Shown: one piece after another, positions 29,398 through 57,214 of the stretch
How positions within the stretch are numbered: position 1 is the stretch's first letter
Layout: each line of letters opens with the position of its first letter
Origin: Streptomyces sp. NBC_01304
GTDB lineage: Bacteria > Actinomycetota > Actinomycetes > Streptomycetales > Streptomycetaceae
DNA length: 64,000 nt
Assembly: GCF_035975855.1 (NCBI RefSeq)
Contig: NZ_CP109055.1
Span: 1,922,001 to 1,986,000, forward strand
Direction of reading: 5' to 3'
Notes under the pieces: generated by a model
Seen by the model: only the letters and a program-made list of their open reading frames with translations
What the model was told of the DNA's origin: nothing
Databases searched by the model: none
Made by a program: the position numbers and the translations under genes

Positions 29398-31263
29398 TCA
29401 GAGCTCGAACTGCCCGGACGTCTGCTGGATCTTGACGATCACGAACTCGGCGGGCTTGACCGGCGCGATGCCGACCAGGACGTTCACCACGCCGTTCGCG
29501 ATGTCCTCGTCCGTCGTGGTGTCGTGGTCGCACTTGACGAAGTACGCCTCGCGCGGAGTGCCGCCCTTGAAGGCGCCCTGGCGGAAGAGGTTGTGCAGGT
29601 ACGAGGAGGCGCTGAGGCGGATCTGCTGCCACAGGTTCTCGTCGTTGGGCTCGAACACGACCCACTGCAGGCCGCGTTGGAGGCTCTCCTCGACATGCAG
29701 CGCGAGGCGCCGCACGGGTACGTACTTCCACTCGCTGTCTAGGGCGTCGGAGCCCTCAAGGGTGCGGGCGCCCCAGACGGTCGGGCCGACCATCGGGAAG
29801 GTCCGCAGGCAGTTCACGCCCAGCGGGTTGAGCAGGCCGCTCTCGCGGTCGGTGAGCTTGACCGCGAGGGAGTGCACCCCGGCGAGCCGTGCCTCGGTGC
29901 CGGCCGGCGCCTTCCACACGCCGCGCTCGGCGTCCGTACGGGCGAACACACCCGCGACGGCGCCCGACGGCGGGAAGGAGCGGAGCCGTCCGGTGAGCGG
30001 GTCGGTGAGCTGCAGCTGCGGGAAGTACAGGCCCGCGTGGTTGCCGCGCACCTGCTCGAAGGCCGCGAGGCCCGCGCGCGCCGCGTCGACGCTGCCCCAG
30101 GAGTTCGGGGCGTCGACGAGGAGGAAGATCCGCCGCTCCTGGCAGAGCCGCTGCGCCGCCGAGACGACTGTGATCGCGTCCTCGGTGTTCTCGTACGCCG
30201 CCAGCTCGGGCAGCACGAGGAGGTTGACGTCGTCCTCGCCGCGCAGCGCCTGGATGCCGGTCTTGCCGGCCTCGGAGCCGATGAGGTCGCGGGGACCCGG
30301 CGCCTCGCCGTCCTCGCCGCCCTCGAGCGGGAACACCGGCGGGTTGACCGAGCCTTCGAGGCCCAGGTCGTTGGCGCACTCGCCGAGGAACCGTACGACG
30401 TCCTCGGGGTCGGTGGAGCCCGCGACCACCTGGATGCGGCGGCCGAAGGCGGTGACCTCGGCGCCCGCGAAGGCGTGCTTGCCGGGGGCGTCGGGCAGGG
30501 CCCGCAGCTTGCGCTCCAGGAGCAGCGCGAGCTCGGCGACGTTGCACGGGGCCTCGCCGTCGCACTCGGGGTCGTACAGCGTGAACTCGCGCTCGACCTC
30601 GCCGATCTTGACCGTCAAGTCGACGGCCAGGTTGGGCAGTTCGTGCCCGAACGGCTTGGAGACGGTGCCCGAGGGGTCGGGCCGGCCCTCGCCGACGACG
30701 TCGACGCGGATCAGGCGGGAGCCCGCGTTGATGACGGTCGGGGCGTAACGGCCGTGCGAGGCGTCCATGGACAGGCCGGTGAAGGCCTCGCGGGCGCCGC
30801 CGCGGGCGTCGTAGACCCGCAGGTTGAACTCGTCGTCCGGGCACGGGGTGTCGTAGTCGACGGCGACGCGCAGCCCGTTGCCCCAGTGGCCGGGCTCCTT
30901 GGCGTGCACTTCGAGGACCGGGCACTCGCTGTGGCCCTCGGTGGACTCCAGGGTGACGCAGGCGGCCTTGCCGCTGCCCGCCTTGGTGACGCGGACGATC
31001 ACGGCGACCGTGCCGCCGTTGCCGAAGAACTGGTGCACCGCGTAGCCGACGGCACTTTGCGAGCTCAGGCCGCCGAAGCGGCGCTCGAACTCGGTGAAGC
31101 TGGTGACCCGCACCGGTTCGTTCAGCGGGCCGCGCCGGGTGTGACCCACGAACGCGGTCACCGAGGTGGTGACGGTCGAGATGGTACGGACACTGCTGGG
31201 AAGCTCTTCGACGTATACGCCGGGATATGTCGGCTTGGCGGCGCTCACTGCATTCGTCGGCAT
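29398..31263 (-). CDS. CIS contractile sheath protein
   Basis: 621 residues; ATG 31263 is preceded by GGAGGGGG. The N-terminal YPGVYVEELPSSVRTISTVT and the C-terminal EESLQRGLQWVVFEPNDENL ... EFVIVKIQQTSGQFEL are diagnostic of tail-sheath proteins. Only one sheath gene is present (Afp-type clusters have three). It is the first gene of the ~30-kb CIS operon, so its promoter lies in the gap to the right. Confidence 0.95.
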   Translation of the reverse strand: MPTNAVSAAKPTYPGVYVEELPSSVRTISTVTTSVTAFVGHTRRGPLNEPVRVTSFTEFERRFGGLSSQSAVGYAVHQFFGNGGTVAVIVRVTKAGSGKAACVTLESTEGHSECPVLEVHAKEPGHWGNGLRVAVDYDTPCPDDEFNLRVYDARGGAREAFTGLSMDASHGRYAPTVINAGSRLIRVDVVGEGRPDPSGTVSKPFGHELPNLAVDLTVKIGEVEREFTLYDPECDGEAPCNVAELALLLERKLRALPDAPGKHAFAGAEVTAFGRRIQVVAGSTDPEDVVRFLGECANDLGLEGSVNPPVFPLEGGEDGEAPGPRDLIGSEAGKTGIQALRGEDDVNLLVLPELAAYENTEDAITVVSAAQRLCQERRIFLLVDAPNSWGSVDAARAGLAAFEQVRGNHAGLYFPQLQLTDPLTGRLRSFPPSGAVAGVFARTDAERGVWKAPAGTEARLAGVHSLAVKLTDRESGLLNPLGVNCLRTFPMVGPTVWGARTLEGSDALDSEWKYVPVRRLALHVEESLQRGLQWVVFEPNDENLWQQIRLSASSYLHNLFRQGAFKGGTPREAYFVKCDHDTTTDEDIANGVVNVLVGIAPVKPAEFVIVKIQQTSGQFEL

Positions 31264-31642
31264 TCCCCCTCCTATCCCTTCTCAGGCACCTGGTGAAGGC
31301 ACCAAGAGACGGCAGAGGGAGGCGCTCAAGAAAGGCGCGCATGGCGGACCGCGCGCAGGGCGCGTCAGGTCATGCACGCCTCATCAGTTTCCCCCGTCAG
31401 TGCCCGGGCGGTTGGCCGCCCGGACCAAGCAATGCGCTTGTGACTCCTGATGCGTAAGTGCTCAACGAAGTATTAGTTGCGGGTGAGTTGAGGAACAAGG
31501 CATCTTCCGGTCACGTCAGGAGGAGGTCGTGTGAAGAGGAAAATCAGCATCTTCACCTGACCTGGAGCAACCCCCGCCGTCTCAAGGCGTGGACGCTTTT
31601 CGGCCACGCGTTCGGTCACCGGTCCGGCCACGATCAATTCGG
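31264..31642. other. Divergent intergenic region between CIS operon and alanine attenuator
   Basis: No supported gene on either strand. Must hold the CIS promoter (leftward). It is clearly less GC-rich around 31430-31560 than the coding DNA. A perfect AGGAGG at 31519-31524 precedes a 9-codon frame (GTG 31531 to TGA 31560) that may be chance. An inverted repeat is listed separately. Confidence 0.5.
31524..31563. repeat. Interrupted inverted repeat upstream of the CIS operon
   Basis: AGGTC-GT-GTGAAGA pairs with TCTTCAC-CT-GACCT (5 + 7 bp with a 2x2 internal mismatch, 12-nt centre). Position 260-300 bp upstream of the sheath start and ~80 bp upstream of the attenuator promoter makes it a candidate operator or terminator-like element. 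Confidence 0.5.
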
Positions 31643-31671
31643 GTGACCGGCCTGACGCGCCCTGTTACCGT
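31643..31671 (+). promoter_or_regulatory. Predicted promoter of the alanine leader
   Basis: -35 GTGACC (31643-31648), 17-bp spacer, -10 TACCGT (31666-31671). The predicted start of transcription (~31678-31679) falls on the leader ATG, so the leader mRNA would be leaderless or nearly so, as is common for actinobacterial leader peptides. Confidence 0.5.
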
Positions 31672-31678
31672 GGAGGGC

Positions 31679-31747
31679 ATGAAGGTCATCCATCGCAGCC
31701 ACGCAGCAGCCGCACGAGCTACCAGCTCGCCGGCCGCCGCTGCCTGA
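31679..31747 (+). CDS. Alanine-rich leader peptide (22 aa)
   Basis: ATG 31679 to TGA 31747 encodes 22 residues containing nine alanines in two runs: HAAAARA near the middle and PAAAA at the end. The first run uses GCA-GCA-GCC-GCA at 31703-31714, with GCA rare in this GC-rich genome. The frame sits directly upstream of an alanyl-tRNA synthetase-like gene and directly before overlapping hairpins, so its likely role is to sense alanyl-tRNA supply by ribosome stalling. GGAGGG lies 2 bases before the ATG, too close for a normal site, fitting a leaderless start. Confidence 0.72.
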   Translation: MKVIHRSHAAAARATSSPAAAA

Positions 31748-31785
31748 CCTTCTCCACTCCCCCGGCGACCGGAAACGGCCGCCGG
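31715..31785 (+). promoter_or_regulatory. Transcription attenuator with alternative hairpins
   Basis: Hairpin 1:2 is CGAGCT-ACC-AGCTCG (31715-31729), starting right after the GCA/GCC codon run. Antiterminator: CGCCGG (31728-31733) can pair with CCGGCG (31762-31767). Terminator: the same CCGGCG-A-CCG pairs with CGG-C-CGCCGG (31762-31785) closed by a GAAA loop, followed by TTCGTCGTTCG. Stalling on the first alanine run would break hairpin 1:2 and free 31728-31733 to form the antiterminator. Free translation would allow the terminator. The logic is the same as trp-type attenuation; function is inferred from sequence. Confidence 0.68.
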
Positions 31786-31889
31786 TTCGTCGTTCGACGA
31801 CTCTTCGCAGTTCAGCGCCCCTCCGCAGGGGCCTGTGCGCGGTGGCTCTTTCCGGTTCCCCCGAACCGAACCCGAAGGATCCCACCGCC

Positions 31890-33089
31890 ATGAACCCCAT
31901 GAGCACCCTGACCACCGAGCAGACCCTGAGCACGTTCCTCGACTTCTACCGCGACCAGGGGCACCACCGCATCACGGGCAGCTCCCTCATCCCGCCGCCC
32001 GGCGACCCGGTGCTCTTCACCACGGCGGGCATGCACCCGCTGACGCCGTACCTGGAGGGCCGCCCGCATCCGCTGGGCCGCCGGCTCGTCAACGTACAGC
32101 GCTGTCTGCGCACCAGCGATCTCGACGAGGTCGGCGACCCCACCCATCTGACCGTCTTCCAGATGCTCGGCTCCTGGTCGCTCGGCGACTACGACGGCCC
32201 GCAGAGCCTGCGCTGGGGCCACCGGCTGCTGCGCGAGGGCTTCGGGATCGAGCAGGACCGGCTGTACGTCACCGTCTTCGGCGGCGACGACCAGGTCGGC
32301 CCCGACGAACGGTCCCTGGAGACCTGGACCGACCTCGGCGTCCCGGTGGAGCTCACCCGGGAGGACAACTGGTGGTCCAACGGCCCCACCGGCCCCTGCG
32401 GACCCGACTCGGAGATCTTCCTGTGGACCGGCGAGGGCCCGCCGCAGTCCACGCCGACCACCGATCCGCGCTGGGTCGAGGTGTGGAACCACGTGATGAT
32501 GCGCTACCGGCGCCACGAGGACGGCAGCCTCGAAACGCTGCGCCAGTCGGGCATCGACACGGGCATGGGCCTGGAACGCCTGGTCAGCGTCCTGCAGGGC
32601 AAGAGCTCGGTCTTCGAGAGCGATCTCTTCGAACCGTGGATGCGGACCCTGCCCGGGCTCTGGTCCCTGGACGAGACCTCGCTGCGCGTGGTCTGCGACC
32701 ATCTGCGTTCCGGCATCACGGTCGTCGGCGACGGCGTCCGGCCGTCCAACACGGGACGCGGCTATGTGCTGCGCCGCCTGGTCCGGCGCCTGTTGACGCT
32801 GCTCTGGCGAGGCGATCCGTCGCGCACGCTGACCGACCTGCCCCGGGAGCTCGTCGAGCACACCCTGGACCACTTCCGTCAGTCGTGCGAGGTCGGTGAC
32901 GTACGCGACGTACTGGACGTGCTCGGCGGCGAGGAGCAGCGCTTCCGGAAGCTCCTGGAGCGCGGCCGCCTCGTCCTGTCGCGGCACGGGTACGACGGCT
33001 CCCTGGGCCAGGACGACTACGACTATCTGCACCAGACGCACGGCCTGCCGCGCGAGCTCGTCGACGGGCTGCTCACCGAGACGGGGTGA
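31890..33089 (+). CDS. Stand-alone alanyl-tRNA synthetase aminoacylation module
   Basis: 399 residues; ATG 31890 has GAAGGA ten bases upstream (an upstream frame to 31842 crosses the attenuator region). Class II AlaRS features in order: PVLFTTAGMHPL (~40), VQRCLRTSDLDEVG (~69), VFQMLGSWSLGDYDG (~89), NGPTGPCGPDSEIF (~164), SGIDTGMGLERLVSVLQG (~220), NTGRGYVLRRLVRR (~287), then helices ending in a YLHQTHGLPRELV segment equivalent to the end of the tRNA-recognition domain. The editing domain (HxxxH, CxxxH) and the C-Ala domain are absent. The canonical GGKHNDLENVG loop is shortened. It may charge tRNA or a small-molecule acceptor with alanine without proofreading. Convergent with the carboxylase operon. 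Confidence 0.85.
   Translation: MNPMSTLTTEQTLSTFLDFYRDQGHHRITGSSLIPPPGDPVLFTTAGMHPLTPYLEGRPHPLGRRLVNVQRCLRTSDLDEVGDPTHLTVFQMLGSWSLGDYDGPQSLRWGHRLLREGFGIEQDRLYVTVFGGDDQVGPDERSLETWTDLGVPVELTREDNWWSNGPTGPCGPDSEIFLWTGEGPPQSTPTTDPRWVEVWNHVMMRYRRHEDGSLETLRQSGIDTGMGLERLVSVLQGKSSVFESDLFEPWMRTLPGLWSLDETSLRVVCDHLRSGITVVGDGVRPSNTGRGYVLRRLVRRLLTLLWRGDPSRTLTDLPRELVEHTLDHFRQSCEVGDVRDVLDVLGGEEQRFRKLLERGRLVLSRHGYDGSLGQDDYDYLHQTHGLPRELVDGLLTETG

Positions 33090-57140: not shown

Positions 57141-57214
<74 letters not shown>

Follow-up and report, generated by a model that had tools for sequence, protein, structure and literature searches.

A putative alanine-specific transcription attenuator of the AlaL type upstream of an alanine-poor auxiliary alanyl-tRNA synthetase gene in Streptomyces

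Introduction

Ribosome-mediated attenuators of Actinobacteria have been described for trp, leu, trpS, and leuS (PMC1262725). They share with the element studied here a leader carrying cognate codons, competing stems and, in two cases, a synthetase gene downstream; they differ in that alanine, alanyl, and alaS have no occurrences in the accessible text of that source. In S. coelicolor, attenuators based on upstream open reading frames (uORFs) have been reported for wblC (PMC7157823) and for the antibiotic-resistance ABCF (ARE5) genes (PMC12421871).

AlaL (SLIV_01313, MNVIGRNIFATARATSSPVAAA), located before alaS (SLIV_01315) in S. lividans TK24, was listed in 2021 among the attenuators identified through RNA-seq (PMC8079986). 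It belongs to the same sequence family as the leader examined here, and both have 22 codons and precede a gene of the alanyl-tRNA synthetase type. The accessible part of PMC8079986 lists AlaL without alternative stems, distribution, a WblC link, or any remark on a short alanine-poor paralogue, and it was the sole source found in the open-licence literature for AlaL as a Streptomyces leader peptide. In S. coelicolor, alaS2 (SCO7600) depends on WblC and tetracycline, whereas alaS does not (PMC7157823, the sole paper in the open-licence literature on Streptomyces alaS2 by title). SCO7600 resembles the gene analyzed here as an AlaRS paralogue that is induced in translation stress and belongs to the WblC/WhiB7 regulon, whose box, GAAAWY, sits 3 nt upstream of the −35; it is presumably of the short type. 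The differences are that the phrase "leader peptide" is absent from the accessible text of PMC7157823 and that our locus has a degenerate box of its own (4/6). For several amino acids, the biosynthetic enzymes on which a cell starved of that amino acid depends tend to have a reduced content of it (PMC4209129); AlaS2 differs in being a synthetase, a class of enzyme absent as "tRNA synthetase" from the accessible text of that source, and in that its avoidance is nearly complete.

The window analyzed here is a stretch of 64,000 nt from Streptomyces sp. NBC_01304 (positions 1922001-1986000 of contig 1 in a 10.99-Mb genome). Its leader is of the AlaL type (approximately 22 codons, ATARATSSPVAAA sequence family, synthetase gene downstream). 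Streptomyces trpS1, reportedly an indolmycin-resistant auxiliary TrpRS under attenuation, is similar in being an auxiliary synthetase behind a cognate leader, but for another amino acid, and we are not aware of an AlaRS inhibitor against which AlaS2 confers resistance. A preliminary description of the locus, made from the letters alone, knew of no described alanine-specific example of such an arrangement; AlaL of S. lividans TK24 is one in print (PMC8079986). One of our loci (L027) has a leader letter-for-letter identical to MNVIGRNIFATARATSSPVAAA upstream of alaS2, and the S. lividans gene is therefore presumably alaS2. In the open-licence literature, we found neither the four-segment anatomy nor the distribution or the joint WblC box and, most notably, nothing on the near absence of alanine from the controlled enzyme.

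Materials and Methods

Relatives of the locus came from two sources: 392 genomes of the genus, 75 of which had alaS2 (including the window's own; the others showed 67-75% identity), with the best 30 loci kept, and GTDB contigs, from which the best 80 of 167 loci were kept. Alignment A1 comprised 96 of 109 loci, kept at 93% identity. An RNA model was made from these 96 sequences. In the folding analysis, an assumed ribosome footprint was masked and the RNA of the 96 sequences was folded as far as segment 3 or segment 4.

Results and Discussion

The alaS2 gene and its upstream region

The following features, all on the + strand, were recognized.

31634-31639 (+): degenerate WblC/WhiB7-like box TCAATT, 4/6 to GAAAWY, 3 nt upstream of the −35
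31643-31648 (+): −35-like hexamer GTGACC, 17 nt ahead of the −10
31666-31671 (+): −10 hexamer TACCGT, 7 nt ahead of the leader ATG
31679-31747 (+): leader peptide gene, AlaL type, MKVIHRSHAAAARATSSPAAAA, 22 codons and TGA
31706-31712 (+): segment 1, codons 10, 11, and the first base of 12, pairing with 31731-31737 (6/7 pairs in the window)
31715-31729 (+): inner leader hairpin CGAGCT-ACC-AGCTCG, codons 13-17 (from reading, fold, and alignment)
31730-31739 (+): segment 2, codons 18-20 and the first base of 21, common to the 1:2 and 2:3 stems
31762-31785 (+): terminator-like hairpin 3:4, CCGGCG-A-CCG-GAAA-CGG-C-CGCCGG
31763-31772 (+): segment 3, antiterminator partner of segment 2 (9/10 pairs in the window) and part of the 5′ side of the terminator-like hairpin
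31780-31785 (+): segment 4, 3′ side of 3:4
31890-33089 (+): alaS2, 399-aa auxiliary alanyl-tRNA synthetase-like protein, PF01411 only, 1 Ala (from translation, Pfam, PDB relatives, and Ala count)

The name alaS2 was taken from S. coelicolor SCO7600. The only Pfam match of the window protein was PF01411 (290.5 bits against a cut-off of 30.3), and the nearest PDB chains were cores of cytoplasmic and other alanine--tRNA ligases (15 sequences, E ≤ 0.001). The editing and C-terminal domains are absent from this protein, which stops at 399 aa. A full-length alaS is present elsewhere in the genome as an 892-codon open frame with 41% identity to alaS2. Thus, the gene that had been described as alanyl-tRNA synthetase-like does encode the synthetase core, but it is a short auxiliary paralogue without the editing domain and not the housekeeping alaS.

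The class II motifs were well conserved: every residue of QxCLRT and DTGxGLERL was kept in at least 103 of 109 AlaS2 sequences. Two positions of the housekeeping protein that we take to be important for recognizing tRNA-Ala were more variable. The Asn of PGNEGR was Asn in 82/109 sequences, and at the Asp of LHDTWGFP, 83 sequences had Asp, 21 had Glu, and 3, including that of the window, had Gln. AlaS2 would be expected to charge tRNA-Ala, but because these putative recognition positions vary, this is not assured.

Conservation of the leader

Each of the 109 related loci whose upstream sequence was long enough, from Streptomyces, Kribbella, Nocardia, and other genera, was preceded by a leader of one sequence family ending in TGA. 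These loci are not independent, since the same organism can recur across the two genome collections (for example, L132 and L077); the upstream region of L072 repeats that of L009. The count of 109 leaves out L002, which is a housekeeping alaS, and L091, whose 166 nt of upstream sequence show the leader end; it includes L104, the leader of which was found only with a pattern of its own, and L079, the lowest-scoring leader. Absence of the leader frame from homologous synthetase genes had been named as an observation that would speak against the preliminary reading; the frame was present throughout. Examples, each followed by the stop, are MNVTGRSTTATARATSSPVAAA, MEVTSRTHTAAARATSSPAADA, MHQMSRLAAAVRAFRSPAAAA (Kribbella), and MKVNSRIAAAAARALSSPVAAA (Nocardia). 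Most leaders had 22 codons and the others mainly 20-24; at L041, the nearest in-frame start was 28 codons ahead of the stop.

Direct reading of 31679-31747 confirmed the frame of 22 codons with nine Ala codons reported previously, as well as its first run, GCA-GCA-GCC-GCA at 31703-31714, which corresponds to codons 9-12. Among the 109 loci (with L104 out of register), Ala was found at codon 14 in all 109, at codon 10 in 104, at codon 12 in 91, and at codon 20 in 108, and every locus had at least two Ala among codons 9-14. Codon 12 was Val in 15 loci, Val being the residue in Kribbella. Pairing constraints account for some of the conservation of Ala at codons 10 and 14, and Arg 13 and Ser 17 were no less conserved than the Ala codons. 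GCC was rare at the control codons 10, 12, and 14 (4 of 304 Ala codons) and frequent at codons 19-22 (250 of 324); where alaS2 genes of Streptomycetaceae and others do use Ala, which is seldom, 91% of the codons were GCC. Pairing explains the avoidance of GCC at codon 10, but not obviously at codons 12 and 14. Arrest by the nascent peptide was considered, and the variation of leader residues 15, 16, 19, and 21 speaks against it.

The element was also looked for outside this set. In a sample of the class (394 genomes), 12 genomes had alaS2 (E ≤ 1e-72), 3 of them outside the genus, and the element was present in 12/12 (8 loci newly tested and 4 already in the set). When 121 genomes of the genus were scanned with the RNA model (strict filters, 25 candidates scored per genome), 23 strong matches (≥99 bits) were obtained, 22 of which were directly upstream of an intact alaS2 by coordinates; agreement between A1 and the model matches is partly by construction (L112, L113, L126, and L128-L135 are outside A1). 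The remaining strong match (G012) was upstream of an alaS2 judged broken by eye. Under the same strict filters, an occurrence of the element ahead of other genes found no example among the strong matches; nine weak matches, including that of G075, scored 23-31 bits. At L126 (2350-3300), a complete AlaL element and promoter box precede an alaS2 that looks broken. A T-box or other known RNA family was considered as well, and at gathering scores Rfam recognized nothing in the window except a tRNA (57141-57214).

Three mutually exclusive stems

The cognate Ala codons 9-12 sit over the first pairing segment. The hairpin CGAGCT-ACC-AGCTCG, which directly follows the Ala run, was read as in the preliminary description, and so was the GAAA-capped hairpin that is closed by CCGGCG and ends at 31785. 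The two remaining pairings were more extensive than had been proposed. The 1:2 stem had been equated with the hairpin at 31715-31729, but the competing stem also takes in the Ala codons (31706-31712 with 31731-31737). The 2:3 pairing of CGCCGG with CCGGCG exists, but it represents only 6 bp of a 10-position pairing (31730-31739 with 31763-31772). In the window, each of these two stems has one C.A mismatch.

The 1:2, 2:3, and 3:4 stems, which are mutually exclusive, were conserved among relatives. Over the 96 sequences, 95.8% of cells were paired in 1:2 with the inner hairpin, 97.2% in 2:3, and 98.7% in 3:4, compared with 12-58% when the partner was slid by 1-3 columns. The covariation score was reached by 0/500 shuffles for each of the three stems. 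The number of pairs changed on both sides was reached by 12/500 shuffles for 1:2, 0/500 for 2:3, and 22/500 for 3:4, and the number of pair types in 1:2 was reached by 500/500.

The clearest covarying trio consisted of the first base of codon 11, the second base of codon 19, and one base of segment 3. Its states were A/T/A in 44/96 sequences, G/C/G in 19/96, and G/C/A in 17/96; the last state keeps 1:2 and breaks that single pair of 2:3. On the tree, the three positions changed at least 11, 5, and 2 times, respectively. Because the segment 3 base changed at least twice only, the covariation of 2:3 rests on few independent events.

The predicted RNA fold of the window was better than 200/200 dinucleotide shuffles, both for 31679-31790 (z −3.9) and for 31679-31895 (z −5.2). 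In the window genome, 31681-31688 (GAAGGTCA, leader start) can also pair with 31745-31752 (TGACCTTC, stop region) in a long outer stem. Further hairpins are predicted between the attenuator and alaS2 (31787-31895), one of which (31839-31888) pairs the stretch around the alaS2 ribosome site.

Predicted folding under ribosome masks

When the RNA ended at segment 3 and no ribosome was placed, 1:2 was predicted in 89/96 sequences and 2:3 in 2/96. With the assumed footprint placed so that the A site was at codon 10, 12, or 14, 2:3 was predicted in 89, 83, and 38 of the 96 sequences, respectively; with the ribosome at the stop codon, it was predicted in 0/96. Of these three A-site positions, only codon 12 led to predicted 2:3 pairing in the window's own sequence. 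When the RNA extended to segment 4, stalling the ribosome at codon 10, 12, or 14 still left 3:4 in the minimum-energy prediction of 70, 84, and 87 of the 96 sequences, respectively, and the range over all states was the same (70-87 of 96). Since 3:4 is in the minimum in every state, antitermination would have to rest on the order in which the helices form. Such kinetic antitermination is usual for attenuators of this kind.

The terminator-like hairpin

A regular expression for the 3:4 hairpin caught 96/109 loci; the other 13 had variant hairpins recognized by eye, with that of L065 shortened. In the window, the hairpin is followed by TTCGTCGTTCG, with 5 T in 15 nt and no U-run. The average number of T in the 15 nt after the hairpin was 8.8 in Kribbella (15/15 loci scored), 5.9 in Nocardia (7/9), and 4.4 in the genus of the window (64/71), against 2.2 expected from upstream regions. 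These T-rich tails make termination after 3:4 likely in Kribbella and plausible elsewhere. A scan of 31264-31900 for consensus terminators returned none on the + strand and one terminator-like site on the minus strand (31356-31335).

The hairpin lies approximately 105 nt from the alaS2 start in the window. Between loci, the leader stop was approximately 66-163 nt ahead of the position matching query residue 1, and the leader and hairpin stayed close together.

Predicted promoter and WblC-like box

The −10 proposed at 31666-31671 had a counterpart in most relatives: a TANNNT hexamer was found 6-8 nt before the leader start in 93/96 representatives, and at exactly 7 nt in 74 (the rule searched 5-9 nt before the start, and L025, L041, and L051 had no −10 by this rule). 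At a spacing of 7 nt, transcription would start at the ATG, so that the transcript is probably leaderless and starts at or near the leader ATG. A consensus sigma-70 scan of 31264-31900 returned no promoter. GAAAWY at 5/6 positions or better, within 2 nt of the expected place, was found in 74/93 representatives, compared with 0-5/93 at nine other offsets. Kribbella mostly had no GAAAWY at the expected place.

Alanine content of AlaS2

The window AlaS2 contains 1 Ala in 399 residues. Among the 109 AlaS2 sequences, 20 had no Ala, 21 had one, and 12 had two, so that 53/109 had 0-2; the maximum was 14. These counts start at the match start and therefore miss a few N-terminal residues, and L014, which has an internal TGA, was counted only up to there. 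Among the 118 closest predicted full-length relatives (the best 120 of 7958 minus the window's own two, a sample that leans to close relatives), 44 had no Ala and 102 had at most two. Pooled Ala was 1.0% in AlaS2 versus 13.7% in 408 mechanically called neighboring ORFs; for the organisms' own housekeeping AlaS, compared over its first 400 residues, it was 6.75%. Ala was the most depleted residue of AlaS2 relative to neighboring ORFs (ratio 0.07), followed by Lys (0.24); the neighbors share the high GC content, which therefore does not explain the depletion of Lys. The short relative on a Peribacillus plasmid has 11 Ala in 386 residues. Because this relative is already Ala-poor, part of the alanine poverty of AlaS2 may be old; the finding of 0-2 Ala in so many AlaS2 sequences suggests continued avoidance.

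No paper on an alanine-poor alanyl-tRNA synthetase was found in the open-licence literature. In our judgment, AlaS2, with 0-2 Ala in approximately 390 residues among the closest relatives and neighbors at 13-14%, is among the clearest cases of cognate-residue avoidance known to us. Other synthetases of the window genome were considered too. The second trpS (L143) has 0 Trp of 327, but the first trpS has 1 of 333, so that the comparison does not discriminate. An upstream WW frame ending in CLCWWRSP and a stop precedes this second trpS. For thrS, one full-length copy only was found in the window genome.

Proposed mechanism and alternatives

We consider it probable, and favor it clearly, that alaS2, a spare synthetase without an editing domain, is controlled by an AlaL-type attenuator of transcription that works through the ribosome and is specific to alanine. 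A WblC-type promoter (with a weak box in the window) would give a leaderless transcript from the leader ATG or nearby. When Ala-tRNA is plentiful, the ribosome would reach the TGA and cover segment 2, the 3:4 terminator would form, and transcription would stop. When Ala-tRNA is short, the ribosome would wait at Ala codons 9-12 (perhaps 14) and cover segment 1, 2:3 would pair, and RNA polymerase would continue into alaS2. If the leader were untranslated, 1:2 would form, with the terminator as the default. The earlier proposal that stalling at Ala codons favors the antiterminator and turns on the synthetase gene is thus supported by comparison, in that the leader is conserved at every locus compared, the three stems are kept, masked folding switches in most sequences, and the downstream protein avoids Ala; it needs amendment in that the gene is a paralogue and the Ala codons are themselves segment 1.

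An Ala-avoiding enzyme behind an Ala-full leader favors a response to alanyl-tRNA shortage. AlaS2 could be completed in such a shortage because its own frame is nearly free of Ala codons. A broader reading, to which we give even chances, regards AlaL-alaS2 as an emergency module able to start itself: evolution would have purged the synthetase of its own amino acid, making it translatable when alanyl-tRNA is exhausted, and it would be released by a cognate-loaded attenuator and primed by WblC, the regulator of antibiotic stress. The charged product of AlaS2 may be chiefly for ribosome rescue, as well as tRNA-Ala; tmRNA is alanylated. If the emergency-module reading is true, the avoidance of GCC would tune the sensor to the isoacceptors reading GCA and GCG, and cognate-free stress paralogues of other synthetases may exist. 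Acute alanyl-tRNA shortage would then be predicted to be frequent enough in Actinobacteria for selection. The two separate reports (AlaL; alaS2 in the WblC regulon) would be joined into one dual-input module, and a brief annotation in S. lividans becomes a conserved, testable candidate switch in several actinobacterial families.

The alanine poverty might have been inherited from an Ala-poor ancestor, or be an accident of composition, and not be selected. The Peribacillus relative, the depletion of Lys, and the loci with up to 14 Ala agree with this explanation, and binomial odds treat sites as independent, which proteins violate. We nevertheless regard it as unlikely, since high-GC genomes favor Ala codons (as the neighboring ORFs show), the most avoided residue is the cognate one, and the low counts in 53/109 loci and 102/118 full-length relatives suggest that avoidance has continued. 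Alternatively, the leader could be a general sensor of translation stress, with ribosome-targeting antibiotics slowing the ribosome on the leader and releasing the terminator, and alanine being incidental. For S. coelicolor alaS2, induction has been recorded with tetracycline via WblC, not with alanine starvation, and uORF attenuators occur at wblC and ARE5 genes (PMC7157823, PMC12421871); moreover, the WblC box is conserved upstream in relatives and the Arg and Ser codons of the leader are at least as conserved as its Ala codons. This alternative predicts neither a near-alanine-free synthetase downstream, nor the prevalence of Ala at codons 10, 12, and 14 across loci, nor the restriction of strong matches to alaS2 (strict filters). 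The WblC response can be exerted solely at the promoter. The two inputs may also operate side by side. We hold an alanine-independent sensor to be improbable.

Control could also be translational or Rho-dependent, if 3:4 or the hairpins near the start hid the alaS2 ribosome site or if Rho cut off untranslated RNA. The window is compatible with this in that its hairpin has no U-run and its minimum-energy fold pairs the stretch around the ribosome site (31839-31888). The distance of 3:4 from the alaS2 start, the wide variation in the distance from leader to gene while leader and hairpin stay together, and the T-rich tails in Kribbella all argue the other way, and we judge such control quite improbable. 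Ala codons, like GC-rich hairpins, occur often in DNA of this GC-rich kind, and the frame and hairpins might have arisen by chance; with a leader family and its TGA kept in 109/109 loci, and the stems and −10 kept in the representatives, this can hardly be the case.

Genomic context of alaS2

In 20 of 26 hand-picked genomes (many lengths rounded), alaS2 fell within the outermost 20% of the main contig, toward one end or the other, a placement as for an accessory gene on chromosome arms. Large plasmids also carry alaS2. Eight plasmid matches at 60-80% identity were obtained; the two contexts compared (H7 and H3) differed from each other, and both plasmid loci compared also carry the element. 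The relatives in Peribacillus and Exiguobacterium have yet other gene contexts. On the Peribacillus plasmid (L115, 1748-4788), AlaRS-like genes of 386 and 595 aa adjoin one another beside an MFS transporter and an ATP-grasp protein, perhaps as a biosynthetic or self-protection cluster.

A role of alaS2 in a biosynthetic cluster was considered as well. In L032-L111, no ORF family besides alaS2 occurred in more than 14 loci by mechanical ORF calls, which are insensitive (alaS2 itself was caught in 70/80 loci); several families among the commonest ones begin with a Kribbella locus. In the window, the divergent neighbor of the leader (29398-31263, minus strand) reads like a contractile-tail sheath protein, as judged from its translation by eye.
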